A stretch of 64,000 bases of DNA, taken from positions 1-64,000 of the forward strand of contig NZ_VUMM01000001.1 of the NCBI RefSeq assembly GCF_009696175.1. Reading direction: 5' to 3'. The notes beneath the pieces are model-generated. The model saw only the letters and a program-made list of their open reading frames with translations, searched no databases and had not been told where the DNA came from. The stretch's first letter is position 1, and each line of letters begins with the position of its first letter. This DNA comes from Floccifex porci (GTDB taxonomy: Bacteria > Bacillota_I > Bacilli_A > Erysipelotrichales > Erysipelotrichaceae). The translations under genes were made by a program, and so were the position numbers. Positions 19,642 to 34,991 of this stretch are shown one piece after another.

Positions 19642-21573
19642 ATGAATAGAATAGCAAAATTATTTTGTCTGATTGCCTGCTGTTTTATGTTGTTTACAAA
19701 TTCCCCTGTAAATGTATTTGCTCAGGAAGAAGAAACAGTAGAAGAAATCAAACAGGAAAATGAGCCAGTTTTAGAACAGGAAGAAAATGAAGAAGAACAG
19801 GAAGAAAACTTTCCGGATTTAGCAACAGGTCTGGTAGCCTCTACTTTTACAGGTATTCAAACGTTCAGCAGATGGAAACCGGGTGGAGGAAGTAAGGCCC
19901 ACATAGACGTTCGTGTTGCAGGAACTTTGACTATCGCTTCTAAAGTAAATGGAGTGACTATTACAAGTGAAACTATTAATGTGCAAACAAGCAATGTCAC
20001 AGGTTCAATCAATGGGTCCAGCGTATCATTTACTCGTAAATCAGGGAGTGGAAAAGAAAATGAGTGGCGTGCAAGTATTAGTAAAAAAACACCATCTTCC
20101 GATATTATTTCCATTAGCTGTACATTAACGGGAACAAATTCAAAAGGACAGAAAATCAGTGTTCCATTCAGTATTACTTATTCAGGATACAGTACATTGA
20201 ATGGATTCATTCTGAACTGTCCAGATAAATCTGGATATGACATTGATATCGCTGCACAGACCATCTCAGAATCTTTTACAGTGGATCGTACCATTGAAAA
20301 AGAATGGGATGACAACAGTAACCAGGATAACAAACGTCCAGATAGTATTCAGGTTCAATTAAAAGCCAATGGTGAAAATTATGGTGATAAAATCACATTA
20401 AATGAAGAAAATGGATGGAAAGTCGAATTAACCGATTTACCTAAATATTCTTCCGGAACCAATGAAATTGTATATACAGTGGTAGAAGATAGTGTAGATA
20501 ACTATACACCATCCTATGCTTATAATGGAGAAACTATCACAATCACAAATACGATTACAGAAATTGAAAAAACATCGGTTACCGTTAATAAAGTATGGAA
20601 AGACAACGATGATCAGGATCGAATTCGCCCAGATCGTATCAAAGTATATTTGATGATTGGAGATAAAGTTGTCGATTCTGTGCATCTGAGTGAAGCAAAT
20701 CAATGGACATATACATTTACAAATCTGGATAAATATGCAGATGGACAAGAAATTGTATATACAGTAAGAGAATTTATTTCCGATGATTTAGAATTGCCAT
20801 ATAGTACAGAAATTACAGGATCTATGGCAGAAGGGTATACAATCACAAATACACATATTCCAGCTACCATTGAAAAGATTACGGTTTCTAAAACTTGGGA
20901 AGATTTAGATGACAATGATCGAATTCGTCCAGAAGATATTACCGTATATTTATATGGAAATGATTCACTTTATGATTCTATCGTATTAAATGAAGACAAT
21001 GATTGGAATTCTGCTTTTATAAATGTTCCTAAATATGATAAAGGAGAAGAAATCAACTATAAGATTGAAGAAATTGATGTCGAAGGATATACATCTGAAA
21101 TAAAAGGAAATATTACAGAAGGATTTGAAATTGTTAACTATCATGATCCAGAACAATTAGATCCAATTACTATTCAAAAAGTATGGGTAGATGAAGATGA
21201 TAAAGATGAAATTCGTCCAGATTCCATTACAGTTTATTTACTTGCCAATGGAGACAAGGAATGTTCTTTAACTTTAACAAAAGAAGAAAACTGGCAAGTC
21301 ACTCTAGAAGGTTTGTATAAATATAGAGATGGTGAAGAAATTGAATATACAATCGTTGAAGAAGAAGTAGAAGGATATACTTCAAATGTGGATGGATTCA
21401 CAATCACAAATACACACGAAGTGAAAGAAGAAGAGAAAAAGGAAGAACCAAAAAAAGAAAATCCTAAGAAAAATAACACAAATACAGGAGTCACTTCTTC
21501 TTTAAAAACTTATATTTCTTTATTCACAATCAGTGGATTGGCCTTAATTCTTTTAAGTAAGAAAAGAAAATAA
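19642..21573 (+). CDS. Wall-anchored surface protein with four Cna-B repeats
   Basis: A 643-residue secreted adhesin-like protein. Residues 1-28 are a signal peptide (IAKLFCLIACCFMLFTN, cleavage near VFAQ). An acidic linker of about 35 residues follows. Residues about 75-210 form a domain shared with the next gene (GAHIDVR/KAHIDVR, NVNGV, ENEWRASIS). Four Cna-B domains begin near residues 214, 312, 412 and 508, each with VxKxWxDxxDxDxxRP and ending in an ITNT-type line, the pattern of self-made Lys-Asn isopeptide bonds. The C-terminus has a charged spacer, NTNTG, a hydrophobic helix and KKRK: a sortase signal with an unusual NTNTG motif in place of LPXTG. Strong ribosome site AAAGGAGAG. Paralogous to the next gene. 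Confidence 0.9.
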   Translation: MNRIAKLFCLIACCFMLFTNSPVNVFAQEEETVEEIKQENEPVLEQEENEEEQEENFPDLATGLVASTFTGIQTFSRWKPGGGSKAHIDVRVAGTLTIASKVNGVTITSETINVQTSNVTGSINGSSVSFTRKSGSGKENEWRASISKKTPSSDIISISCTLTGTNSKGQKISVPFSITYSGYSTLNGFILNCPDKSGYDIDIAAQTISESFTVDRTIEKEWDDNSNQDNKRPDSIQVQLKANGENYGDKITLNEENGWKVELTDLPKYSSGTNEIVYTVVEDSVDNYTPSYAYNGETITITNTITEIEKTSVTVNKVWKDNDDQDRIRPDRIKVYLMIGDKVVDSVHLSEANQWTYTFTNLDKYADGQEIVYTVREFISDDLELPYSTEITGSMAEGYTITNTHIPATIEKITVSKTWEDLDDNDRIRPEDITVYLYGNDSLYDSIVLNEDNDWNSAFINVPKYDKGEEINYKIEEIDVEGYTSEIKGNITEGFEIVNYHDPEQLDPITIQKVWVDEDDKDEIRPDSITVYLLANGDKECSLTLTKEENWQVTLEGLYKYRDGEEIEYTIVEEEVEGYTSNVDGFTITNTHEVKEEEKKEEPKKENPKKNNTNTGVTSSLKTYISLFTISGLALILLSKKRK

Positions 21574-21758: not shown

Positions 21759-24422
21759 ATGAATGGAATTAGAAAAATGATGTGTTCGATTGCGTGTTGT
21801 TTCATGATATTAGGAAATGCTCCAATAAATATCTATGCAGCCGAAGAAGATCCAACAATTGAAGCTACAATAACTGAAACTTTAGCAAACGAACCAGAAC
21901 AAAATCCTGAGGTTTTAAGCACACAACCATCACAAGATCCAAGTATACAAGATCCAAGTACGGATCCAGATTTGGAAGAAGAACCTGAAGAAGAAATCAA
22001 AGAAGGAGAAACAACAGAAACACCAAATGCAGATCTAGGTGTTGCAACAGCACTTATGATGGCAGGTGCAAGTACATACCGTGGTCAAAGTGGAAATGGT
22101 CAAAATGGAAATCATGATGGAAATAGTGGCGGAGGAACAGGCGCTCATATCGATGTACGTTTTGCTGCATCTTTAACAATTGAATCTAAAGTAAATGGTA
22201 TTACGGTTTCCAGTGAAACAATCAGTGTAGACACAAGTAATGTCTTAGGATCCTTTAATGGCACACCTGTGTCATTTACTCGCAAATATGGACAAGGAAT
22301 TGAAAATGAATGGCGTGCAAGTATTAGTCAATTAACGCCAGCAACTGACAAAATTTCAATTTCATGTACATTAACAGGAACTAAGAAAGATGGAGAAAAA
22401 ATTAATATTCCATTCTCGATGGATTATTCTGGGGCTGCAACTTTAAACCAATTTAAAACAAATTGTCCCAATCATACTGGATACGATATTAATATAGTCG
22501 CAAACGATATTTCAGAATCCTTTACTGTAAATCGCACAATTCAAAAAGTATGGGACGATGACAACAATGCGAACAATACACGTCCTGATAATATTTCTGT
22601 CCAATTATTTGCAGACAATGAAGTATATGGCGAACCAATTACTATATCAAAAGACAATAATTGGCAAATTACAATAGAAAATCTACCAAAATATTCATCG
22701 GGAAATAAAGAAATTTATTATTCAGCTGAAGAAATCAATATACCAGCTGGTTATAGTTCTTTTACTTCATGTAGTGGTCAAAACATAACAATCACAAATA
22801 CGTATCGAGTAGAACAAACACAATCCATTACAGTTAGAAAAGTATGGGATGACAAAAATAATCAAGATGGAATTCGTCCGAATTCTATCAAAGTTTATTT
22901 AATGGACAATGAAGTTTCAAGAGGGGAAGTAATATTAAGTGAAGAAAATCATTGGACACATACTTTTACTGGTCTTGATGCGAATAAAGAATATCGTGTG
23001 GTTGAATACAAAGATACAACGACTACTGCATTAAATGAATATACAACAACTTATTCTGGTTCAATGCAAAATGGTTTCATAATCAAAAATAGTTATACAC
23101 CAGAAACAATCGAAAAACTAAATGTAAAAAAAGTTTGGGATGATAATAATGATCAAGATGGACTTCGTCCTAAATCCATTTATGTTTACTTATATGCCAA
23201 TGGAAATTATTACGATAAAATTATATTAAATGAAGAAAATGATTGGTCAGGTTCATTTGAAAATCTTCCAAAGAAATCCAATGGAGAAGACATTAAATAT
23301 ACTATCAAAGAACCTGCTTTAGATGGTTATACATCTAAAGTAACTGGTGATGTAGATAATGGATTTACTGTTACGAACACACAAGTATATGATTCTATAA
23401 CTGTTAAAAAAGAATGGAATGACAATAATAACCAAGATGGTCTTCGGCCTGAAAAAGTTTATATTTATCTAATTGGTAAAGTGAAAACTGAAAATCGTGT
23501 CATATTTTTGGCTTATGATGAACAAATTCTTTTAAATGATACAAATAATTGGACTTATTCATATTTGGATCATCCAGTATATTATGAAGGACATAAAATT
23601 GAATATATTTTACATGAAGGGGAAGTAGATAACTATACAACTGAAATAACAGGTGATGCTGAAAATGGATTTACTATCACAAATACACATATACCAGAAG
23701 TAAAAGATATTACGGTTCAGAAAGTATGGAATGATAATGATGATTTTTATGGTAAGCGTCCAGATGAAATTACGGTAGCTTTATTTGCGAATGGTAAAGA
23801 AGTGTCTACAATTCAGGTAAAAGAAAGTGAAGATTGGACGGCTACATTTGAAGATGTTCCGGTCTATGAGAATGGAAACAAAATAAAATATGAAGTATAT
23901 GAAAAATATACAATCGATAACGATGATTATAAATACTATGATTCTTCTGTTAAAGAAGATGAAAATGGTGGATTTATAATTACGAATACCTTTAATTATT
24001 TTAGTTTCACAGTTCGAAAAGTATGGAATGATCAAAATGATAAAGATGGTATACGTCCAGAAAAAGTACAGTTTGAATTGTATCAAAATGGAAAACTAAA
24101 AGATACATTTACTTTATCGGAAGGAAATGACTGGGATATTGATTTTACGGTACATGCTTTTGATGACGATGGAAATGTAATTGAGTATTCTGTTGTTGAA
24201 ATTAATGTAGCTGATGGTTATACATCTAAAGTGACTGGAAGTGCATTAGATGATTTTACAATTACGAATACACATGAAATCACTAAGAAAGAAGATCCTA
24301 AGAAAGAAGAAACGAAAACCAATAACACAAATACGGGTGTTGTATCTTCTTTTAGATCAAATATTCTATTATTGACTTTAAGTGCAATTGGTGTATTCTT
24401 CTTTAATAAGAAAAGAAAATAA
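21759..24422 (+). CDS. Wall-anchored surface protein with six Cna-B repeats
   Basis: An 887-residue paralogue of the preceding protein, with the same order: signal peptide (CSIACCFMILGNAPINIYA), Glu/Pro/Thr-rich linker, a Gly/Asn-rich stretch (NGNHDGNSGGG), the shared N-terminal domain (GAHIDVRFAASLTIESKVNG...ENEWRASIS), and Cna-B domains starting near residues 256, 356, 451, 546, 649 and 748. It ends with NTNTG, a hydrophobic helix and NKKRK. The Cna-B domains keep the Lys of KVW and the Asn near ITNT needed for internal isopeptide bonds. Repeat number differs from its neighbour (6 against 4), suggesting expansion by recombination. No sortase gene lies in the window. Its ribosome site region (AAAGGAGAGAG) is almost the same as in the paralogue. 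Confidence 0.9.
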   Translation: MNGIRKMMCSIACCFMILGNAPINIYAAEEDPTIEATITETLANEPEQNPEVLSTQPSQDPSIQDPSTDPDLEEEPEEEIKEGETTETPNADLGVATALMMAGASTYRGQSGNGQNGNHDGNSGGGTGAHIDVRFAASLTIESKVNGITVSSETISVDTSNVLGSFNGTPVSFTRKYGQGIENEWRASISQLTPATDKISISCTLTGTKKDGEKINIPFSMDYSGAATLNQFKTNCPNHTGYDINIVANDISESFTVNRTIQKVWDDDNNANNTRPDNISVQLFADNEVYGEPITISKDNNWQITIENLPKYSSGNKEIYYSAEEINIPAGYSSFTSCSGQNITITNTYRVEQTQSITVRKVWDDKNNQDGIRPNSIKVYLMDNEVSRGEVILSEENHWTHTFTGLDANKEYRVVEYKDTTTTALNEYTTTYSGSMQNGFIIKNSYTPETIEKLNVKKVWDDNNDQDGLRPKSIYVYLYANGNYYDKIILNEENDWSGSFENLPKKSNGEDIKYTIKEPALDGYTSKVTGDVDNGFTVTNTQVYDSITVKKEWNDNNNQDGLRPEKVYIYLIGKVKTENRVIFLAYDEQILLNDTNNWTYSYLDHPVYYEGHKIEYILHEGEVDNYTTEITGDAENGFTITNTHIPEVKDITVQKVWNDNDDFYGKRPDEITVALFANGKEVSTIQVKESEDWTATFEDVPVYENGNKIKYEVYEKYTIDNDDYKYYDSSVKEDENGGFIITNTFNYFSFTVRKVWNDQNDKDGIRPEKVQFELYQNGKLKDTFTLSEGNDWDIDFTVHAFDDDGNVIEYSVVEINVADGYTSKVTGSALDDFTITNTHEITKKEDPKKEETKTNNTNTGVVSSFRSNILLLTLSAIGVFFFNKKRK

Positions 24423-24439
24423 TCTATGAATTATGATTT

Positions 24440-24466
24440 GCCTTGTGTATTCGCACAAGGCTTTTT
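24440..24466 (+). terminator. Terminator after the second Cna-B gene
   Basis: 8-bp stem GCCTTGTG/CACAAGGC, TATTCG loop, five T. Confidence 0.9.
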
Positions 24467-24504
24467 CATGTGATATAATATTAAAAAATGTTCTGGAGGT
24501 TATT

Positions 24505-26241
24505 ATGAAGAAGAAAACAAAAAAAGCACTCCTTATCACTGGATTGTCTTTGGGTGCTGCTTATGCTGGTTTGTCGATTCTTGCCAAACATTCACGCGAT
24601 AAACAAAAAGAAGATCCAGATTTAAAAGTACAGACCTATGAAGATCAGGGAATTCGATTGAGTCCAAAAGATAAAACTTTTTATGAAAAATATGGAAAAA
24701 GAGTGGTTGATGTTGGCCTTTCCTTTACTGGTTTAATTGTATTGGCTCCTGTATATGGACTGATTTCTCTTGCCATTGTGATGGATGATCCAGGTCCTGT
24801 ATTGTTTACTCAAAAGCGAGTGGGAGAAAATAAAACATATTTTAAGCTTCATAAATTCAGAAGTATGAAGATGAGCACGCCTCATGATGTACCAACTCAT
24901 CTACTGGAAAATCCAGATCAGTATATTACTCGTGTTGGTAAAATTTTAAGAAAATATTCATTAGATGAGCTTCCTCAAATATGGGATATATTTGTGGGAA
25001 ATATCACAACGGTTGGACCTAGACCGGCTTTATGGAACCAGAAAGATCTGATTGCACAAAGAGATTTATATTATGCCAATGATGTCAAACCTGGTTTAAC
25101 GGGCTGGGCTCAGATCAATGGTAGAGACGAACTGGAAATTGATGTAAAAGCTTCTTTAGATGGAGAATACACTAGAGCGCTTCAAAAAAACAGTTTATCG
25201 GGTTTCATGATGGATGTGAAATGTTTCTTTAAAACGATTACTTCCGTTTTACATCATGATGGAGTCGTAGAAGGTGGAACCGGTTCTCTTCCTTCAAATT
25301 ATGATCAGATTGGTTTTGGACACGATGTTAAAATCAATTTGAATAAAAAAAGAAAAGTATTGATTACAGGAAAAGATTCTTATATTGGTACTTCCTTTGA
25401 AAAATATGCGTATAAAAAATATCCGGATTCTTTTGAAATCGATACTTTGGATATGAAAGATGAAAATTGGAAAGAGCATGATTTTTCAAAATACGATGCC
25501 ATTTTCCATGTTGCAGGAATTGCGCATGCAGATGTAGATTCCATTGATGAAGATCAAAAGAAATTATATTATCAGATCAATTGTGATCTAGCTTATGATT
25601 GTGCTAAGAAAGCCAAAGAAGAAGGTGTTAGACAATTCATCTTTATGTCCAGTATGATTGTTTATGGACAGATAAGCAATCTGAAACAGAGTGGTCGCAT
25701 TACTCGCTTAACAAAACCTGAACCATCCAATTTCTATGGAGATTCAAAATGGAAAGCGGATTGTAAAATACGAACTTTAATGGATAAGAAATTTAATGTA
25801 GTAACGATACGTCCTCCAATGATATATGGAAAAGGAAGTAAAGGAAATTATCCGATTTTATCAAAAATTGCTCAAAAAACACCAGTGATTCCGAATGTGG
25901 AAAATGAAAGATCTATACTATATATTGAAAATTTATGTGAATTTGTTTGTCAGGTTCTATTTTCAGGAAAAGGTGGAATCTTCTTTCCACAGAATAAAGA
26001 ATTAGTAAGTACTACTCAAATTATGGAAGAAGTAGCTAAAGTACATAATCACAAAGTGATTTCTTCTTCCTTATTGAGTCCAGCTGTATTTATATCCAGT
26101 ACATTACCTGGAAAAGTAGGAAAACTGGTGAATAAAGCCTTTGGTTCGTGTGCGTATGATCCATCTATGAGTGTATATCCTGGATTGGATTATCAGGTTG
26201 TCGATTTTAAAAAATCAATTAAATTAACAGAAGGAAAATAA
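24505..26241 (+). CDS. Phosphoglycosyltransferase fused to a sugar-nucleotide epimerase/reductase
   Basis: A 578-residue fusion. Residues 1-30 contain a Lys-rich start and a first hydrophobic segment. Residues about 60-260 are a bacterial sugar transferase (WcaJ/PglC type) with one re-entrant hydrophobic stretch, DDPGPVLFTQKRVGENKTYF, LHKFRSMK, SLDELPQIWDIFVG and GPRPALW, which moves a sugar phosphate onto undecaprenyl phosphate. Residues about 285-578 are an SDR domain (VLITGKDSYIGTSF, HVAGIAHAD, YGDSKWKAD with Y-x3-K). The frame starts earlier, but the ATG at 24505 has a clear GGAGG. The fusion suggests the epimerase/reductase finishes the sugar used by the transferase, perhaps the keto-sugar from the dehydratase at 17649. 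It abuts the next gene with no gap. Confidence 0.9.
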   Translation: MKKKTKKALLITGLSLGAAYAGLSILAKHSRDKQKEDPDLKVQTYEDQGIRLSPKDKTFYEKYGKRVVDVGLSFTGLIVLAPVYGLISLAIVMDDPGPVLFTQKRVGENKTYFKLHKFRSMKMSTPHDVPTHLLENPDQYITRVGKILRKYSLDELPQIWDIFVGNITTVGPRPALWNQKDLIAQRDLYYANDVKPGLTGWAQINGRDELEIDVKASLDGEYTRALQKNSLSGFMMDVKCFFKTITSVLHHDGVVEGGTGSLPSNYDQIGFGHDVKINLNKKRKVLITGKDSYIGTSFEKYAYKKYPDSFEIDTLDMKDENWKEHDFSKYDAIFHVAGIAHADVDSIDEDQKKLYYQINCDLAYDCAKKAKEEGVRQFIFMSSMIVYGQISNLKQSGRITRLTKPEPSNFYGDSKWKADCKIRTLMDKKFNVVTIRPPMIYGKGSKGNYPILSKIAQKTPVIPNVENERSILYIENLCEFVCQVLFSGKGGIFFPQNKELVSTTQIMEEVAKVHNHKVISSSLLSPAVFISSTLPGKVGKLVNKAFGSCAYDPSMSVYPGLDYQVVDFKKSIKLTEGK

Positions 26242-27366
26242 ATGAAAATTGTTATCGTATGTGCTTTTGATACGTATTTTGAACGTGTCAGACTTTTAAA
26301 AAAATATTATGAAGAAAAAGGAAATGAAGTATTAATTCTTTCTTCTTCGTTTTCTCATCGGAAAAAAGAACAGATTCAATCGGATTTAGTGGATATTTCT
26401 ATATCCACTAAACCGTATTATAAAAATTTATCCATTGATCGTCTTTACAATCATTATGAATTTTCGAGTAAAACAAAAGAACAATTGGAAACTATACAAC
26501 CCGATTTAATTCATTGTTTGATTCCATGTAATAGTTTATGTAAAACAATGAGTGAATATAAAGAAAAACATAATGTAAAACTTATATTTGATGTAATGGA
26601 TCTATGGCCAGAAACTATGCCCATTCAAACCTTAAAGAATCATTTCCCATTTACTTTATGGAAAAATATTAGAGACCGATATCTAAAAAATGCCGATTAT
26701 ATATTGTGTGAATGTGATCTGTTCAAAGAAAAACTGAATTTGATTCATTATGAATCTTGTAGCACTTTATACTGGTCAAAGGAAAATCTGCCTTTAGATA
26801 GTCATCCAGAATTATCGGATGATCTGGAATTCTGTTATTTAGGAAGTATCAATCATATTATTGACATTCCTTTTATCGTTCAGTTTTTAAAAGAGTGTTC
26901 TTTATATAAAAAAGTAAGACTTCACATTATTGGAAATGGAGAAAATAAAACAGACTGGATCTATTCCTGTTTAGAAAATGGTATAAATGTCATCGATCAT
27001 AAAGAAATTTACGATCCTGAAAAGAAACAGAAAATATTTGATCAATGTCATTATGCTTTAAATGTTATGAAACCCAGTGTGGTAGTGGGATTGACAATGA
27101 AATCACTGGATTATTTGTGTGGCTCAATTCCAATGATCAATACAATACAGGGGGATACGTATACTTTATGTGAAGAAAAAGATTTAGGATGGAATGTAGA
27201 TACTTTAAATTATAAAAAGGCTGCTTATCTATTATGTGAAGAAAGTAAAGAGTGCCAGCTTCAAAGAAGAAGAAACTGTAAGGAAGCTTATTATACTTAT
27301 TTCACTTATGAGTCTTTTAAAATGAAATTAGATGAAGTTTATGGAAAAATATTACACAACGGGTAA
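26242..27366 (+). CDS. Glycosyltransferase, GT4-like
   Basis: A 374-residue cytoplasmic protein of GT-B layout. The N-terminal domain opens with KIVIVCAFDTYFERVRLLKKYY and contains LIFDVMDLWPETMP, a line typical of WbuB/WcaI-like GT4 enzymes. The C-terminal domain has LEFCYLGSINHIID, LHIIGNGENK and GLTMKSLDYLCGSIPMINT, matching the nucleotide-sugar binding half. The usual GT4 ExxxxxxxE is only loosely kept. Its ATG touches the stop of the initiating phosphoglycosyltransferase, so it probably adds the second sugar to the lipid-linked primer. The 3' end overlaps the MerR-methyltransferase gene by about 30 bp. Confidence 0.8.
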   Translation: MKIVIVCAFDTYFERVRLLKKYYEEKGNEVLILSSSFSHRKKEQIQSDLVDISISTKPYYKNLSIDRLYNHYEFSSKTKEQLETIQPDLIHCLIPCNSLCKTMSEYKEKHNVKLIFDVMDLWPETMPIQTLKNHFPFTLWKNIRDRYLKNADYILCECDLFKEKLNLIHYESCSTLYWSKENLPLDSHPELSDDLEFCYLGSINHIIDIPFIVQFLKECSLYKKVRLHIIGNGENKTDWIYSCLENGINVIDHKEIYDPEKKQKIFDQCHYALNVMKPSVVVGLTMKSLDYLCGSIPMINTIQGDTYTLCEEKDLGWNVDTLNYKKAAYLLCEESKECQLQRRRNCKEAYYTYFTYESFKMKLDEVYGKILHNG

Positions 27367-28510
27367 ATTTGCGAAATTGGCAAATGTCAGTGAAAGAACA
27401 TTGCGATATTATGATCAGGTAGGCTTATTAAAGCCTTCTTTTGTATTGGAAAATGGATATCGACAGTATGGCAATCAGGATTTATTACGACTACAGAAAA
27501 TCTTATTGTTGAGAAAATTAGGGTTTTCCATTGAAGAAATCGTTTCCTTTCTTTCCAATCAGAATAAAGAAGAAGATGTTTTAAAATCTTTACAGATGCA
27601 GAAAGAATTGATTGATCATCGAATTCAAACGTATAACAGCATTAAAGAATCTTTAACGCTAACAATGGATACCATTCAAAATCAGGGAATGAACTGGAAT
27701 AAAGTCATTGAAGTTTTAAATTTATTATCAAGAGACGATCAGATGATTGAATCGTATAAGAATTCAAACAACTTAAAAGTTCGAATTAATCTACATGAAT
27801 TGTACTCTCAAAATAAAATAGACTGGTTTACCTGGATCTTTTCTCATATAAAATTTTCTAAAATTAATAGTTTATTAGAAATTGGATGTGGAAATGGTCA
27901 ATTGTGGTTAAACAATCATATTGAGTTGCGAAATCGACAGATTTTCTTATCCGATTCCAGTTATGGAATGATTGAAGATATAAAGAAACATTTAAGTGAT
28001 GATTTTAGTTTTATGGTTTTTAATTGTGAAAACATTCCGTTTAAAAAAGATTTTTTTGATTGTGTAATTGCCAATCACGTCTTATTTTATTTAAAAGATT
28101 TACAGAAAGGTTTAAAAGAAATCTCTCGAGTTTTAAAAACGGATGGATATTTTTATTGCAGTACTTATTCAAAGAATCATATGAAAGAAATAGGGGAACT
28201 GGTACATGAATTTGATCCTTCTATTTATTTATCAAAAACAAATTTAAGTGAGCAGTTTGGTAAAGAAAATGGAGAACAATTATTAAAATCTTATTTTAAA
28301 GACATTCAATGTTTTGAATACAATGATACTTTAGTTGTCACAAATGCTTCTCATTTAGTGGATTATGTACTTTCTTGTCATGGAAATCAGAATGAAAAAT
28401 TATTAAAACGTGTCAACGAATTTTATCGTTTTATTGAAGATAAAATAAAACGAAATGGAAACATTCAAATCACAAAGGAAGCTTGTCTGTTTGAATGTAA
28501 GAAAAAATAA
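27341..28510 (+). CDS. MerR-type regulator fused to a SAM-dependent methyltransferase
   Basis: About 389 residues. The N-terminal 75 residues are a MerR winged helix (YYTTGKFAKLANVSERTLRY, YDQVGLLKPS, GYRQYGNQD, then the LRKLGFSIEEI helix). A helical linker of about 50 residues follows, and then a class I methyltransferase (LLEIGCGNGQLW SAM loop, NCENIPFKKDFFDCVIANHV, LKEISRVLKTDGYFYCSTYS). An alternative start at 27332 gives three more residues. Either start lies inside the upstream GT4 gene. MerR activators work on promoters with a 19-bp spacer; just such a promoter, with a perfect dyad, lies 260 bp downstream in front of rmlA. Whether the methyltransferase is a sensor, enzyme or both is unknown. 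Confidence 0.85.
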   Translation: MEKYYTTGKFAKLANVSERTLRYYDQVGLLKPSFVLENGYRQYGNQDLLRLQKILLLRKLGFSIEEIVSFLSNQNKEEDVLKSLQMQKELIDHRIQTYNSIKESLTLTMDTIQNQGMNWNKVIEVLNLLSRDDQMIESYKNSNNLKVRINLHELYSQNKIDWFTWIFSHIKFSKINSLLEIGCGNGQLWLNNHIELRNRQIFLSDSSYGMIEDIKKHLSDDFSFMVFNCENIPFKKDFFDCVIANHVLFYLKDLQKGLKEISRVLKTDGYFYCSTYSKNHMKEIGELVHEFDPSIYLSKTNLSEQFGKENGEQLLKSYFKDIQCFEYNDTLVVTNASHLVDYVLSCHGNQNEKLLKRVNEFYRFIEDKIKRNGNIQITKEACLFECKKK

Positions 28511-28560
28511 AAAACATGTTAAAAATGAATTGAAAAAAGGATTTAAAAGGAAAGAAAGTG

Positions 28561-28686
28561 TTGAAACGAATACCCATTGGAATCGAAATTTTTAAAGAAA
28601 GGCTCGATACCCAATCCCACTATATTGATAAAACACAATTGATTTTCAATATAAGAAAAAGTGGTGTTCTTTACTGGACATTATAG
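28561..28686 (+). pseudogene. N-terminal remnant of an AAA-ATPase-like / PD-(D/E)XK nuclease superfamily protein
   Basis: From TTG at 28561 the frame reads LKRIPIGIEIFKERLD, then SHYIDKTQLI, and stops at TAG 28684-28686. This is the standard start of the large family of AAA-ATPase-like proteins with a C-terminal PD-(D/E)XK nuclease domain (KRIPIGI--F---I----YYVDKT-LI), which are about 550 residues long and common as accessory genes in gut Firmicutes. The P-loop part and all the rest are missing, so this is a decayed fragment left in the gap. Confidence 0.7.
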
Positions 28687-28770
28687 ATCAGCAGATCCTC
28701 TAAATACGTTAGAAAATAACTGCTTCTAAAGTATTACAATATTCTCATGTTATAAATTTGCGAATAAGAC

Positions 28771-28801
28771 TTGACCCTTACGTTACGTAAGGGTTTAATA
28801 T
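28771..28801 (+). promoter_or_regulatory. MerR-type promoter and operator of the rml operon
   Basis: TTGACC (28771-28776), a 19-bp spacer, TAATAT (28796-28801). The spacer holds a perfect dyad: ACCCTTACGT, one central T, ACGTAAGGGT (28774-28794). A 19-bp spacer with a centred dyad is the hallmark of promoters that MerR-family proteins twist into an active form. The start point would lie near 28808, 20 nt before the rmlA ATG and ahead of its AAAGGAG ribosome site. The regulator is probably the MerR-methyltransferase encoded just upstream. Confidence 0.85.
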
Positions 28802-28827
28802 TAGTGTGCATGTAAAGGAGTTTTATT

Positions 28828-29706
28828 ATGAAAGGTATAATTTTAGCAGGTGGAAGTGGAACACGTTTATATCCTTTAACAAAAGTAACAAGTAAACAAT
28901 TGCTTCCTATTTATGACAAACCAATGATTTACTATCCAATGTCCATTTTGATGCAGGCAGGGATCAAAGACATTTTAATTATTTCTACACCGGATGATAC
29001 ACCTCGTTTTAAAGAATTATTAGGAGATGGACATCAGTTTGGTGTTGAATTATCGTATGTTGTGCAACCAAGTCCAGATGGATTGGCACAGGCATTTATT
29101 TTAGGAGCAGACTTTATTGGTGATGACAGTTGTGCCATGATTTTAGGAGACAATATTTTCCATGGACATGGTCTGACAAAACGGTTAAGACAAGCTGCCA
29201 ATCAGGAAAAAGGAGCGACTGTATTTGGATATTATGTAGAAGACCCTGAACGTTTTGGTGTGGTTGAATTTGATGAAAATGGAAAAGCAGTTTCTTTAGA
29301 AGAGAAACCAAAGATGCCAAAATCCAATTATGCGGTTACGGGATTGTATTTCTATGATAATAAAGTGGTGGATTACGCTAAGAATTTAAAACCAAGTGCA
29401 CGTGGAGAATTGGAAATTACAGATTTAAATCGCATTTATTTAGAAAACAATGAATTAAATGTCACTTTATTGGGTGATGGATTTACATGGCTGGATACAG
29501 GAACACACGAATCTTTAGTGGATGCGACAAATTTTGTGAAGACCATAGAAGAACATCAGCATCGTAAGATTGCTTGTCTGGAAGAAATTGCGTATGAAAA
29601 TGGATGGATTTCTAAAGAACAATTGTTGGATACATATGAAATTTATAAAAAGAATCAATATGGTGCGTATTTAAAGAAAATTATTGATCGTAAATATATT
29701 AAGTAG
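28828..29706 (+). CDS. rfbA: Glucose-1-phosphate thymidylyltransferase
   Basis: First step of dTDP-L-rhamnose synthesis: dTTP + glucose-1-phosphate to dTDP-glucose. The 292-residue protein has the nucleotidyltransferase start [16 protein letters not shown], then [16 protein letters not shown], the metal site LGDNIFHG and [20 protein letters not shown], all diagnostic of RmlA. Ribosome site AAAGGAG. It is the first gene of a tight rmlA-C-B-D operon headed by a MerR-type promoter. Confidence 0.97.
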
Positions 29707-29714
29707 GTGAAAAG

Positions 29715-30287
29715 ATGAAAGTAACAGAAACAAAAATTCCAGGCGTATTGATCATTGATACCGATGTGTTTGGAGATCATAGAGGATATTTTACGGAAAC
29801 GTATTCAAAACCTAAATATGAAAAATTGGGAATTGATGTGGAATTTGTACAGGACAATATGTCTTTTAGTTCGCAAAAAGGAACACTAAGAGGTCTTCAC
29901 TGGCAAAATCCTCCTTATGCTCAATCCAAACTAGTTTCCTGTACAAAGGGAAAAGTGATCGATGTAGCTGTGGATATTCGTAAAGGATCACCCACTTATG
30001 CACAATGGGTCAGTGTTGAATTAAGTGAAGAGAACCATCGTCAGTTTTTTATTCCTCAGGGATTTGCTCATGGTTTTTTAACTTTAAGTGAGAATGTAGA
30101 ATTCCGTTATAAAGTGGATAATGTTTATAATAAAGAATCCGAAGGTGGAATGCGTTATGATGATCCTACGGTTCATGTAGATTGGGGTACTTTATTAAAT
30201 GGAATCGAACCGGTTTTATCACAAAAAGATAAAGATGGACCAACTTTAGAAGAATCAGACAATCAATTTATTTATGAAGGAGAATAA
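29715..30287 (+). CDS. rfbC: dTDP-4-dehydrorhamnose 3,5-epimerase
   Basis: Converts dTDP-4-keto-6-deoxyglucose to dTDP-4-keto-rhamnose. The 190-residue cupin has GYFTETYSKPKYE, QDNMSFSSQKGTLRGLHWQ (catalytic His), DVAVDIRKGSPTY and FIPQGFAHGFLTLSE, ending with a variable tail. It begins 8 bp after rfbA with an AGGTGA ribosome site. Confidence 0.96.
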   Translation: MKVTETKIPGVLIIDTDVFGDHRGYFTETYSKPKYEKLGIDVEFVQDNMSFSSQKGTLRGLHWQNPPYAQSKLVSCTKGKVIDVAVDIRKGSPTYAQWVSVELSEENHRQFFIPQGFAHGFLTLSENVEFRYKVDNVYNKESEGGMRYDDPTVHVDWGTLLNGIEPVLSQKDKDGPTLEESDNQFIYEGE

Positions 30288-30290
30288 GAT

Positions 30291-31325
30291 ATGAAAATTT
30301 TAGTAACAGGTGGAGCTGGATTTATTGGTGGAAATTTTGTTCATTATATGGTGAATAAATATCCAGAAGATATGATTGTGAATTTAGATAAATTAACTTA
30401 TGCAGGAAATTTAGAAACTTGTAAACCAGTAGAAGATAAACCAAATTATAAATTTGTAAAAGGGGATATTGCCGATCGTCCATTTATTATGGATTTGTTT
30501 GAAAAAGAAAAATTCGATGTTGTGGTTAACTTTGCGGCAGAATCGCATGTGGATCGAAGCATTGAAGATCCAGAAATCTTTGTGAAGACAAATGTTATGG
30601 GAACAACAACTTTATTGGATGCCTGTGTAAAATATGGAATTCAAAGATACCATCAAGTATCTACAGATGAAGTGTATGGAGACTTACCTTTAGATCGTCC
30701 AGACTTATTCTTTACAGAAAACACACCACTTCATACAAGTTCTCCATATTCTTCAGCAAAAGCCAGTGCGGATTTATTTGTTTTGGCTTATCATAGAACC
30801 TATGGACTTCCAGTAACAATTTCACGTTGTTCAAATAATTATGGACCTTATCATTTCCCTGAAAAATTAATTCCATTAATTATTTCACGTGCTTTAAATG
30901 ATGAAACCATTCCTGTTTATGGAACGGGAGAAAACGTTAGAGACTGGTTACATGTATACGATCACTGTGTTGCCATTGATTTAATTGTTCGTAATGGTAG
31001 AGTGGGAGAAGTATACAATGTAGGTGGACACAATGAAAGAACAAATCTGGAAGTTGTCAAAACTGTATTACGTGCTTTAAATAAACCAGAATCTTTAATC
31101 ACTTTTGTATCCGATCGTAAAGGACACGATATGAGATATGCCATCGATCCAACAAAATTAGAAACGGAATTGGGATGGAAACCAAAATATACATTTGATA
31201 CAGGGATTCCTATGACCATTCAATGGTATTTGGATAATAAAGAATGGTGGGAAAATATCATTTCTGGAGAATATCAGAATTATTTTGATAAAATGTACGT
31301 AGAAAAAGGAAGAGCCAATAAATAA
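30291..31325 (+). CDS. rfbB: dTDP-glucose 4,6-dehydratase
   Basis: Second step of the dTDP-rhamnose pathway. The 344-residue SDR enzyme shows the NAD motif TGGAGFIGGNFV, NFAAESHVDRSIEDP, VSTDEVYGDL with the catalytic Asp-Glu, the YSSAKASAD Tyr-x3-Lys, and NNYGPYHFPEKLIP. The ribosome site is formed by the last codons of rfbC (GAAGGAGAA). The stop shares its last base with the start of rfbD (TAATG), so they are coupled. Confidence 0.97.
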   Translation: MKILVTGGAGFIGGNFVHYMVNKYPEDMIVNLDKLTYAGNLETCKPVEDKPNYKFVKGDIADRPFIMDLFEKEKFDVVVNFAAESHVDRSIEDPEIFVKTNVMGTTTLLDACVKYGIQRYHQVSTDEVYGDLPLDRPDLFFTENTPLHTSSPYSSAKASADLFVLAYHRTYGLPVTISRCSNNYGPYHFPEKLIPLIISRALNDETIPVYGTGENVRDWLHVYDHCVAIDLIVRNGRVGEVYNVGGHNERTNLEVVKTVLRALNKPESLITFVSDRKGHDMRYAIDPTKLETELGWKPKYTFDTGIPMTIQWYLDNKEWWENIISGEYQNYFDKMYVEKGRANK

Positions 31326-32236
31326 TGAAAGTATTTGTGACAGGAGTTGGAGGTCAATTAGGCCACGATGTAATCAATGAATTGGATAAAAGAGGACATA
31401 TAGGAATTGGCAGTGATATTCATGAAACCTATAGTGGGATTCAGGATAACAGTGCAGTAACAAAAGCACAATATGTTTCTTTAGACATTACCAATGAAAA
31501 AGATGTAATGGATACCATTCTGTCTATAAAGCCAGATGCCATCATTCACTGTGCAGCCTGGACAGCTGTGGATTTAGCAGAGGACGATGACAAAATTGAA
31601 AAAGTTCGTTTGGTTAATGTGAAAGGAACCGAAAATATCGCAAAAGCAGCAAAAGCTGTGAACTGTAAGTGCTTATATTTATCTACGGATTATGTATTTG
31701 ATGGTCAAGGGGATATACCTTGGGATCCAGATTGTAAAGATTATAAACCATTAAATGTTTATGGACAGACCAAATTAGAAGGAGAATTGAAAATATCTTC
31801 TATTTTAGATAAATATTTTATTGTTCGTATCGCATGGGTATTTGGTTTAAATGGAAACAATTTTATTAAAACGATGTTAAATATTGGGAAAAAATATGAA
31901 ACATTAAGAGTTGTCAACGATCAGATTGGTACACCAACGTATACATATGATTTAGCTCGTTTATTAGTGGATATGATTGAAAGTGAACAATATGGTTATT
32001 ATCATGCCACAAATGAAGGTGGATATATTTCATGGTATGATTTTGCGTGTGAAATTTTTAAACAGGCAGGTTATGAGACAAAGGTCATTCCTGTAACAAC
32101 GAAAGAATATGGATTATCTAAAGCCGCTCGTCCATTTAATTCACGATTGGATAAATCTAAATTGGTTAAAAATGGTTTTACACCTTTACCAACCTGGCAA
32201 GATGCGTTATCCAGATATTTAAAAGAGATTGGATAA
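31325..32236 (+). CDS. rfbD: dTDP-4-dehydrorhamnose reductase
   Basis: Final step giving dTDP-L-rhamnose. The 303-residue SDR protein has VTGVGGQLGHDV, IHCAAWTAVDLAEDD, STDYVFDG, NVYGQTKLEGE (Tyr-x3-Lys), the RIAWVFG line and a C-terminal FNSRLDKSKL, all typical of RmlD. It closes the rml operon, which ends at a good terminator. The dTDP-rhamnose feeds the glycosyltransferases and exporter encoded downstream. Confidence 0.97.
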   Translation: MKVFVTGVGGQLGHDVINELDKRGHIGIGSDIHETYSGIQDNSAVTKAQYVSLDITNEKDVMDTILSIKPDAIIHCAAWTAVDLAEDDDKIEKVRLVNVKGTENIAKAAKAVNCKCLYLSTDYVFDGQGDIPWDPDCKDYKPLNVYGQTKLEGELKISSILDKYFIVRIAWVFGLNGNNFIKTMLNIGKKYETLRVVNDQIGTPTYTYDLARLLVDMIESEQYGYYHATNEGGYISWYDFACEIFKQAGYETKVIPVTTKEYGLSKAARPFNSRLDKSKLVKNGFTPLPTWQDALSRYLKEIG

Positions 32237-32263
32237 TTTCAGTATCAAAAAAATGATTTATTG

Positions 32264-32288
32264 ACCGGTCTTATAAGATCGGTTTTTT
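32264..32288 (+). terminator. Terminator of the rml operon
   Basis: Eight-pair stem ACCGGTCT/AGATCGGT with one G-T pair, TATA loop, six T. Confidence 0.85.
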
Positions 32289-32545
32289 ATTATAAATCAG
32301 AACAGTAATCAAAGTCTGTGATATACAATGAACAGCTTCTTTCCACAATCAAAAGATTTAGACCTTTTGAGGATACGTACATGTGTATCTTATTTCGAAA
32401 CAATATAGAACGACTGGAAAAAGAGAATGTTGAAATTAAAAAATATGGAAGTGGAAAATGGCTCAAAAGCTAAATGAACTTTTCTGTTCCAGTTCTTTTT
32501 AAAAAAAGTGCACTGGAACAATCATTAAACAAACAATCTCAATTT
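32289..32545. other. Gap with decayed coding DNA
   Basis: No intact gene. Short open pieces occur in different frames, for example an ATG at about 32329 followed by NSFFPQSKDLDLLRIRT, and, one frame over, NNIERLEKENVEIKKYGSGK before a TAA near 32471. Two adjacent frames that each look protein-like suggest a frameshifted remnant; I cannot name the parent. Confidence 0.4.
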
Positions 32546-32573
32546 TTGACACATTTATACTTAAAAAGATAAT
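32546..32573 (+). promoter_or_regulatory. Promoter of the DUF2975-like gene
   Basis: TTGACA (32546-32551), 16-bp spacer, GATAAT (32568-32573). Confidence 0.6.
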
Positions 32574-32622
32574 TTCTAATATTTATAAAATTTTGTATTC
32601 TTATGATGCAAGGAGAAAGAAA

Positions 32623-33126
32623 ATGAAAAGTTTAGAAATCGTTCAAAAATTTTTTAAAATGTTTAAAGTTTTATCAAAAATAGCTATGATATTTTGTATT
32701 GTGATCAGTTGTATCTGGGTTGTGGGTCTGATCTGTGCTTTATTTTATACAGATATAACAACATTAAATAAAGTCTTTATGGTTCAGAATATGAATACAA
32801 GTACATTATGGGTATCTTGTTTATGTGGAATGATCCTATCTGTAACTTATGGTATTTTATCTTATTATTCTTATAAGTATTGTGAAAAAGAAGTAAATGA
32901 TGGAACACCTTTTACACATGAAGGGGCTACAATGATAAGACAACTGGCAATAAAATCTATATGGATGCCTATTGTTTCCTATATAGTATGTGAAATATTT
33001 ATTACTTTATATGAAATTCAATATTATGATTTTGAAGCCTGGTTCAGTATTGGATGGATCCTATTATTATTTTTACTGGCTGCCATATTTGATTATGGAG
33101 CGGAATTAAAAGAACAGTCAAATTAG
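32623..33126 (+). CDS. DUF2975-like membrane protein
   Basis: A 167-residue integral membrane protein with four predicted helices (about residues 15-40, 62-85, 115-138, 145-160). The middle line NDGTPFTHEGATMIRQLAIKS and the end FDYGAELKEQS fit the DUF2975 family, small four-helix proteins often encoded next to an XRE-type regulator. Here the usual downstream regulator is absent. The ATG at 32623 has AAGGAGA; the frame is open further up but without support. Function unknown. It is an isolated unit with its own promoter and terminator inside the glycan region. Confidence 0.75.
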   Translation: MKSLEIVQKFFKMFKVLSKIAMIFCIVISCIWVVGLICALFYTDITTLNKVFMVQNMNTSTLWVSCLCGMILSVTYGILSYYSYKYCEKEVNDGTPFTHEGATMIRQLAIKSIWMPIVSYIVCEIFITLYEIQYYDFEAWFSIGWILLLFLLAAIFDYGAELKEQSN

Positions 33127-33184
33127 ATTGTTTTTGAATAAAAAATATATGTTTTACAATTAAATGTAAGATAGAAAGAATGAT

Positions 33185-33230
33185 AAAAAAGATAGAAATA
33201 AACAACGTTCAGGTAATTTCTATCTTTTTT
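33185..33230 (+). terminator. Terminator after the DUF2975-like gene
   Basis: 15-bp perfect stem from AAAAAAGATAGAAAT (33185-33199) and ATTTCTATCTTTTTT (33216-33230), 16-nt loop. It can work in both directions. Confidence 0.9.
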
Positions 33231-33278
33231 ATTTTGTTTATATATTTTGAATATTTAGGAAAACTGAAATGATTAGTG

Positions 33279-33284
33279 TATAAT
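33279..33284 (+). promoter_or_regulatory. Extended -10 box before the glycosyltransferase at 33312
   Basis: TATAAT preceded by TG at one base distance region (GTGTATAAT), 27 nt before the start; the -35 is weak. Confidence 0.5.
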
Positions 33285-33311
33285 GTATTTGTTTAGATTG
33301 TGAGAAATAAA

Positions 33312-34991
33312 ATGAAAATTAAAACTTTTATTCATAATATATTGAAGTTTGGATTGATAACAACATTAAAACAAAGAAAACTTACTAAAAAAAGACAAAA
33401 ATTGTCTTTGAAAGATATACAATCTTTTCATATGGTAGACGATGCTGTTTTGTCATCCCAAAGAAATATAAAATTTAAAGAGGGTATTCTTTTTAGTATT
33501 ATTACTCCTCTTTATAATACACCTAAAGAATATTTAGAAGAATTGATTGAATCCGTAAAAAAACAAACATATGAAAATTGGGAATTGTGTTTTGCGGATG
33601 GAAGTGATTTTTCACATAACTACGTTGAAGATATATGTAAAAAATGTATTTTGGAAGATAAACGTATTAAATACATAAAATTAACAGAAAATAAAGGAAT
33701 TTCTGAAAATACAAATGAATGTATAAAAATTGCTAAAGGTAATTATTATGTTTTACTCGATCATGATGATTTATTGCATCCGAGTGCGTTATTTGAAGCT
33801 GCTAAAGTTATTGAAGAAAAAAATGCAGATTTTATATATACAGATGAAGCAAAATTTTCAAAAAAGCCAGAGTTGATAGATAATATTTATAATTTTAATT
33901 TTAAATCAGGATTTGGTATCGATGAATTAAGATCTCATAATTATATTTGTCATCTTACTATATTTAATAAATCATTAATTCAAAATGAGAAGGTTATTTA
34001 CAGAAAAGAATTTGATGGAAGTCAAGATCATGATATGGTTTTGAGATTAACTGAAAAAGCAAAATGTATCGTTCACATTCCAAAAGTCCTATATTATTGG
34101 AGAGTCCATGAAAATTCTGTATCAAAAAATATTAATGTAAAGAGTTATTGTATTGATTCTGCAATAAAAGCAGTTACAGAACAATTGATAAGAAATAATG
34201 AAAATGGTATTGTTTATAGTAGTTTTCCGTTTCAAACTTTGTATAAGATTGATTATAAATATGATCCTAAAGTGAATATCACAATTATTCTTCACCATTG
34301 TGAAAATAGAAATATACTTGAAAAAAACATTAAAGAGCTAAGAAAAATAGGTGATTTTGAAATAATATATTTATATTCGGAACCTATTTCTTCATTGGGC
34401 GGGATTAATTTTATTTCAAACAATATTAATTTTTCTGATCAAATAAATCAAGCCGTAAAACAATCATCGAATGAGTTTATTTTACTTTTAGAATGTGGAT
34501 GTGTCCCAAAAAATTTGGATTGTATTTATCAGCTATTAATGCATGTACAAAGAAAGAATATAGGGTCTGTTAGTGGAAAAGTAATTAATAAGGATAATAC
34601 AGTTTACTATGCTGGAATAGCTTTAGATTTTAGTAAAAATGACTGTATTTATCGTTTTGGTGAATTAAGTACCACAATGGACTATGGTTATGAAGCCATG
34701 TTAAGCTATGTAAGAAATACTACAATACAGTCAGATACTTGTTTAATCTTTAAAAAAGAATTGTTTAATAAAATAAATGGTTTTAATGATATAAAAGGTT
34801 ATGAATGTATAGATTTTTCATTGAGATTATTTAGTGAAGGATATAGAAATGTTTGGACTCCATATGCGCTGTTTTCAAAAATTAATAAAAACAATGATTA
34901 TAGTTACGACAGTTCAGAATTTTATGGTTTTTGGAATGGAATGAAAGAAGAGTATTTAAATGATTCAATTAAAAAAATTCATTTAGTTTAA
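33312..34991 (+). CDS. Family 2 glycosyltransferase with a degenerate second GT2 domain
   Basis: A 559-residue cytoplasmic enzyme. Residues about 60-190 form a GT2 domain (SIITPLYNTPKEYLEELIES, WELCFADGS, metal-binding LLDHDDLLHP, YTDEAKF) and continue to the acceptor line FDGSQDHDMVLRLTE and YYWRVHENS. Residues about 320-540 follow the course of a second GT2 domain (NITIILHHCENRNILEKNIK to GYECIDFSLRLFSEGYRNVW), but where the DxD metal site should be it has LLLECGCVP, so this half is probably inactive. The related protein at 37272 has both domains intact. A rhamnosyltransferase role (RgpF/GacG-like dual architecture) is a fair guess. GTG at 33300 is an alternative start. Confidence 0.83.
   Translation: MKIKTFIHNILKFGLITTLKQRKLTKKRQKLSLKDIQSFHMVDDAVLSSQRNIKFKEGILFSIITPLYNTPKEYLEELIESVKKQTYENWELCFADGSDFSHNYVEDICKKCILEDKRIKYIKLTENKGISENTNECIKIAKGNYYVLLDHDDLLHPSALFEAAKVIEEKNADFIYTDEAKFSKKPELIDNIYNFNFKSGFGIDELRSHNYICHLTIFNKSLIQNEKVIYRKEFDGSQDHDMVLRLTEKAKCIVHIPKVLYYWRVHENSVSKNINVKSYCIDSAIKAVTEQLIRNNENGIVYSSFPFQTLYKIDYKYDPKVNITIILHHCENRNILEKNIKELRKIGDFEIIYLYSEPISSLGGINFISNNINFSDQINQAVKQSSNEFILLLECGCVPKNLDCIYQLLMHVQRKNIGSVSGKVINKDNTVYYAGIALDFSKNDCIYRFGELSTTMDYGYEAMLSYVRNTTIQSDTCLIFKKELFNKINGFNDIKGYECIDFSLRLFSEGYRNVWTPYALFSKINKNNDYSYDSSEFYGFWNGMKEEYLNDSIKKIHLV

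Follow-up and report, generated by a model that had tools for sequence, protein, structure and literature searches.

The gene at 27341–28510 (plus strand) of the window, that is, of the whole 64,000-nucleotide stretch of DNA analysed here, encodes a fusion of a MerR-type DNA-binding head with a class I SAM methyltransferase. With a probability of about 0.8, we regard this fusion as a dedicated one-component MerR-type regulator of the dTDP-L-rhamnose operon in which the methyltransferase serves as the effector domain. Comparison of sequences strongly supports the presence of both domains, the conservation of the SAM site, the operator, and the identity of that operator as the target, and the geometry of the promoter suggests that the fusion is probably an activator of dTDP-rhamnose synthesis.

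The open reading frame encodes 389 amino acids. A second possible start, an in-frame ATG, is found 9 bases further upstream (27332), and the start at 27341 (MEKYYTTG...) agrees with the starts of the Faecalibacillus and Thomasclavelia homologues. The initial annotation had described one protein with an intact DNA-binding half and a methyltransferase half, and both parts of this description were confirmed by matches to the Pfam families MerR_1, MerR-DNA-bind, and Methyltransf_11 along the single reading frame and by the existence of full-length homologues. The MerR_1 winged helix-turn-helix (PF13411) was matched over residues 5–72 (27353–27556, plus strand) at 6e-17, PF00376 at 1.3e-12, and MerR-DNA-bind over residues 50–105, all above the curated cut-offs; the nearest solved structures for this part are MtaN, TipA, and BmrR. 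On the basis of this predicted N-terminal winged helix-turn-helix, the fusion is assigned to the MerR family. The wing motif GYRQY contains residue 40, which tracks the operator half-site. A putative linker or coiled-coil region (residues ~76–135; 27566–27745, plus strand) follows and is the least conserved part of the protein, with a mean pairwise identity of 0.28, compared with 0.62 in the DNA-binding head and 0.56 in the methyltransferase core. A long helix at residues 77–112 appears here in a low-confidence AlphaFold model, and the MerR-DNA-bind match runs to residue 105. Assignment to the metal-sensing MerR proteins was rejected, as the scores for ZntR (55.4 bits against a cut-off of 167.95), CueR (57.7 against 147.4), and MerR (53.7 against 150.85) all fell far short.

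The methyltransferase half (residues ~136–389; 27746–28507, plus strand), delimited by Pfam and by the alignment of homologues, comprises an N-terminal extension (136–175), a Rossmann core (176–290), and a C-terminal cap carrying the motif SCHGNQ (345–350). In line with the earlier assignment, the Pfam search returned Methyltransf_11 at residues 179–273 over the full profile (positions 1–95 of 95) with an E-value of 1.1e-18, above the curated cut-off, and its nearest solved structures are Rossmann methyltransferases. The SAM-binding loop, previously described as complete, was recovered as motif I, E180-x-G-C-G-x-G186, and D205 is the acidic residue after strand 2; E180, G182, G184, G186, and D205 were invariant across 33 aligned homologues. 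Invariant in the same alignment were W162, W165, H280, and S345, and C346–Q350 were nearly so. The conservation of the SAM-site residues indicates that the methyltransferase half is no relic, and makes the binding of SAM or SAH very likely. SCHGNQ marks the rml-linked clade, with single changes in two members, and is missing from the diverged paralogues and the stand-alone methyltransferases, both of which keep motif I; this clade specificity suggests a second ligand or a substrate. The stand-alone proteins, which resemble residues ~136–388 and have no MerR head, were found in related genomes and on Agrobacterium and Rhizobium plasmids (L074–L077, L199, L200). Identification of the fusion as BioC was rejected, because the best BioC match (4.3e-21) reached only 75.8 bits against a cut-off of 184.95, and identification as UbiE likewise, with 49.6 bits for MenG/UbiE against 158.35. 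AlphaFold models were poor (mean pLDDT of 50.7 for the full length and 55.1 for the methyltransferase half). Their Foldseek matches were GtmA, OxaG, TmtA, and other SAM methyltransferases with TM-scores to the query below 0.4; given these values, no pocket geometry was drawn and the Foldseek result goes no further than agreement with the sequence assignment.

The gene lies between glycan genes and a MerR-type rml promoter, as had been proposed. Upstream, the 3' end of a glycosyltransferase-like reading frame (26242–27366, plus strand; Glyco_transf_4 below the cut-off, 2.7e-05) overlaps the start of the regulator gene. Downstream, on the same strand, the target operon consists of rmlA (glucose-1-phosphate thymidylyltransferase; 28828–29706, TIGR01207), rmlC (29715–30287, TIGR01221), rmlB (30291–31325, TIGR01181), and rmlD (31325–32236, TIGR01214), each identified above the cut-off, and is followed by glycosyltransferases and an ABC exporter pair, which form a usual setting of a rhamnose polysaccharide. 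The promoter itself could be placed at 28771–28801 (plus strand, TTGACCCTTACGTTACGTAAGGGTTTAATAT): its −35 hexamer TTGACC (28771–28776) and −10 hexamer TAATAT (28796–28801) are 19 bp apart, and it ends 26 bp ahead of the rmlA start codon. The predicted operator is a perfect 21-bp dyad, ACCCTTACGT-T-ACGTAAGGGT, at 28774–28794. A pattern search of the 2.02-Mb source genome returned this site as the sole match at three or fewer mismatches. Over-long spacers of 19–20 bp are characteristic of MerR targets (PMC10028694), and the predicted dyad operator inside the 19-bp spacer of the target promoter is a further family trait of the fusion. In the window and in most members of the first family, the upstream gene, commonly a glycan gene, runs up to or into the regulator gene, and no rml-type dyad was found ahead of the regulator gene in the rml-linked clade of that family; the regulator is therefore probably co-expressed with the upstream glycan operon and then controls the supply of the rhamnose precursor.

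Several other features of this region were recorded. A decayed fragment resembling a PF09820 AAA-ATPase (28557–28682; 20.8 bits, just below the cut-off) lies between the regulator gene and the rml operator, and in the closest relative, G003, the operator directly follows the regulator gene without this insert. The reading frame at 24433–26241 encodes a 602-aa protein in which a bacterial sugar transferase (phosphoglycosyl transferase) is fused to an NAD-dependent epimerase/RmlD-like domain. Beside the glycan genes, two adjoining genes (19642–21573 and 21759–24422) encode surface-type proteins with four and six Cna_B domains. No Rfam element was detected within 24000–34000 of the window.

The association between regulator and operator extended across genomes. 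In all 57 scored regulator/operator pairs, the site had a 19-bp spacer and was located 20–51 bp (median 28) ahead of the first rml gene (rmlA in 55 and rmlB in 2); the regulator gene was more than 1 kb away or on another contig in 27 of them. The strict pattern preceded rml in 29 of the 36 same-family genomes that have rmlA and the regulator, compared with none of the 90 with rmlA and no regulator (Fisher p=3e-22, a value that overstates the case, as related genomes are not independent and the common descent of regulator and rml operon raises the counts). Weaker sites were found ahead of rml in five more regulator-bearing genomes of the family. A relaxed dyad search over ~0.75 Mb of neighbourhoods placed every dyad ahead of rmlA or, in operons that begin with rmlB, ahead of rmlB. 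With a weight matrix built from 28 sites and scored leave-one-out, regulator-bearing rml operons with available upstream sequence scored 10.5 to 50 bits, the lowest value belonging to G031, whose regulator gene is split, whereas 14 controls, regions upstream of rmlA in regulator-less genomes, scored −24 to −10 bits. Several of the control RmlA proteins are 86–88% identical to that of the window, yet their upstream regions score negative. Application of the matrix to the second family, an essentially independent set, revealed a site before rml wherever rmlA lay within the neighbourhood analysed. Where rmlA lay outside it, predicted trans sites were found, in G248 before rmlA on another contig and in G271 beyond that neighbourhood, with weaker ones in G251 and G256. 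The pattern persists where the locus is rearranged, where the genes are oppositely oriented (L008), and where the contig changes. Regulator genes were broken at two loci, L072 (G031) and L221 (G286); the rml operator is degraded in G031 and intact in G286. In regulator-less genomes, dyad promoters of the TTGACCTGTACGTNACGTATACGCTTA and TTGCTTGTTACGTTACGTAATG types, not before rmlA, were observed in G038, G060, G145, G051 and G043, G047, G076, G089; these are presumably the targets of other MerR proteins.

Further comparisons addressed the protein that binds the operator. Positions 5, 7, 8, and 9 from the centre of the dyad arms co-vary in a compensating manner above shuffles. At wing residue 40 (GYRxY), all 6 pairs with a ...CT outer arm have Ala, Thr, or Phe, and all 51 pairs without it have Tyr; the tree suggests about two independent lineages for this switch. 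Residue 18 of the recognition helix is not claimed as a specificity residue; its trend is weak (Glu or Gln mostly with ...GGG arms) and confounded by phylogeny. G257 (L168, L169) contains two regulator–rml pairs, each with an operator type of its own, CCATGACG...CGTCATGG and AAGGTGACG...CGTCATCTT, and these represent a candidate natural orthogonal pair. A similar site was present within ~120 bp ahead of their own genes in the diverged second-family paralogues, in G334, and in the Niallia plasmid copy; in G274 and G278, which have such a diverged paralogue only, there was no site before rmlA. Taken together, the covariation, the residue-40 association, the G257 pairs, the paralogue sites, and the findings in G274 and G278 are explained most simply if the fusion protein itself recognises the operator. 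The rml promoter, originally put forward as the target, is upheld by the 57 pairs, the 29/36 against 0/90 contrast, the dyad covariation, the association between wing residue and half-site, and the paralogue operators, and it is almost certainly controlled by the fusion. The diverged paralogues (L177, L182, L184, L186, L189, L191; L079 7901; L179) show 27–35% identity, lack SCHGNQ, and each have a dyad promoter of similar kind immediately ahead of their own gene; they may constitute an autoregulated sister subfamily.

Based on these data, the following mechanism can be proposed. Expression of the upstream glycan operon would yield the regulator, which would then switch on the supply of precursor. 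Presumably as a dimer, the fusion would contact the 21-bp dyad with its MerR winged helices, within the 19-bp spacer of the rmlACBD promoter, and a conformational change in the C-terminal part would twist the DNA and render the promoter usable by RNA polymerase, as in other MerR regulators. The methyltransferase domain would very probably bind SAM or SAH together with a second specific ligand, e.g., an intermediate of the rhamnose pathway or of glycan assembly, for which W162, W165, H280, and SCHGNQ (345–350) provide candidate contact residues.

It is very improbable that a different MerR protein uses the operator and that the fusion, a methyltransferase encoded close by, has some unrelated target. 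The source genome encodes eight other MerR-like matches, and ACGTNACGT-type dyads occur in fusion-less genomes too, away from rmlA; however, such an arrangement is hard to reconcile with the presence–absence association across genomes and the retention of the operator where rml is unlinked, with the co-variation of dyad and wing residue, and with the similar site before the diverged paralogues' own genes. A predominantly repressing rather than activating role in rml expression also seems improbable, if to a lesser degree. In the absence of ligand, MerR proteins are repressors, and for some of them repression is the main role. Nevertheless, good −35 and −10 hexamers spaced 19 bp apart with a dyad between them represent the arrangement that MerR proteins activate (PMC10028694).

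For the regulator of rml preferred here, the role of the methyltransferase half allows several readings, among which metabolite sensing with SAM as co-ligand is ranked first, an active sensor-enzyme second, and plain SAM/SAH sensing third. That the half is an active enzyme is a tentative possibility: it would methylate either a glycan residue or its own inducer, for instance an intermediate of the rhamnose pathway or a lipid-linked glycan intermediate, which would couple regulation to catalysis and make the signal self-limiting. The complete invariant SAM motif and the conserved candidate active-site residues are consistent with this, and the existence of related stand-alone methyltransferases without a MerR head suggests that the fold is probably enzymatic elsewhere, but SCHGNQ, the motif that sets the rml-linked clade apart, could just as well belong to a binding pocket. 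A more specific and rather speculative version is a self-resetting sensor-enzyme, in which a rhamnose-pathway or glycan-assembly intermediate would undergo SAM-dependent methylation, and active-site occupancy or turnover (SAM to SAH, substrate to product) would open or close the rml promoter; if this were true, the activity of the promoter would read out catalytic flux. It is unlikely that the domain simply senses SAM/SAH and so links rhamnose synthesis to one-carbon status. The invariant SAM motif would fit such a function, and the SAH-responsive one-component regulator SahR offers a precedent (PMC4239095); on the other hand, the operator occurs at one promoter only in the genome, that of the rhamnose operon, and a second ligand is indicated by the residues conserved in addition to the SAM site (SCHGNQ, H280, W162, and W165).

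MerR regulators that carry a ligand domain at the C-terminus are a familiar kind, and comparison with those of the TipA/Mta/BmrR/SkgA type revealed a shared winged-helix head (phmmer E-values of 4e-15 to MtaN and 3e-14 to TipA), predicted helical linker, C-terminal effector domain, and dyad in a 19-bp promoter spacer. The effector domain in these proteins binds drugs or metals and the targets are drug efflux or the regulator's own gene, whereas in the fusion the effector is a class I SAM methyltransferase with an intact SAM site and the target is rml. With the BioC/UbiE/YcgJ-like class I methyltransferases, the fusion shares motif I ExGCGxG, the acidic residue after strand 2, and the full-profile Methyltransf_11 match, and differs from them in the DNA-binding head, a conserved N-terminal extension of its own, and the SCHGNQ cap motif. 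SahR resembles it, by description and without sequence comparison, as a one-component regulator that responds to a SAM-cycle metabolite, but has an ArsR head and controls SAM-cycle genes (PMC4239095). The initial annotation had called such a regulator little studied; consistently, no description of the function of a MerR–methyltransferase fusion, or of a MerR regulator of rml, was found in the open-licence literature. The architecture is already in databases under generic names, and it is the regulator class itself that is apparently undescribed.

Full-length homologues with 40–72% identity are widespread in two families of one order, including Faecalibacillus intestinalis, F. faecis, and Thomasclavelia cocleata among the named members. 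They were present in all five genomes of the genus examined, the window's own included (the other four 50–72% identical), in about 40 of the 245 genomes of the family, and in 73 of the 295 genomes of the order, a count that includes a few stand-alone methyltransferases; at the class and phylum levels, matches outside the order were few and distant. In gut bacteria (Faecalibacillus, Thomasclavelia, and relatives), the fusion would represent a conserved type of regulator that is linked to one promoter of precisely known position and has a conserved methyltransferase as its sensing domain; the range of MerR effector domains would thereby gain an enzyme fold. In many Gram-positive bacteria, the polysaccharides of the cell wall have rhamnose as a main component (PMC4931226), and the way in which these gut bacteria match rhamnose supply to wall synthesis becomes directly testable. 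The matched regulator–operator pairs also offer natural specificity variants.

Two homologues with the same architecture from end to end were found on plasmids, in Lactobacillus johnsonii (42% identity; annotated as "methyltransferase domain-containing protein") and in Niallia sp. (35%; "MerR family transcriptional regulator"). On the maximum-likelihood tree, the copies with an rml operator formed one clade (support of 98/96) that also contained the L. johnsonii copy; the diverged paralogue group and the Niallia, G383, and G334 copies were external to it. Unlike the fusion of the window, neither plasmid copy has adjacent rml genes, and the Niallia copy, with a similar operator before its own gene, lacks SCHGNQ. 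The L. johnsonii homologue carries this motif; its plasmid is without annotated rml genes, and the surroundings of the fusion gene showed no matching operator. The record of the L. johnsonii G2A "plasmid" (NZ_CP040855.1; L224–L226) contains long mirrored gene blocks near 0–24 kb and 101–122 kb; either an assembly artefact or terminal inverted repeats may account for them.
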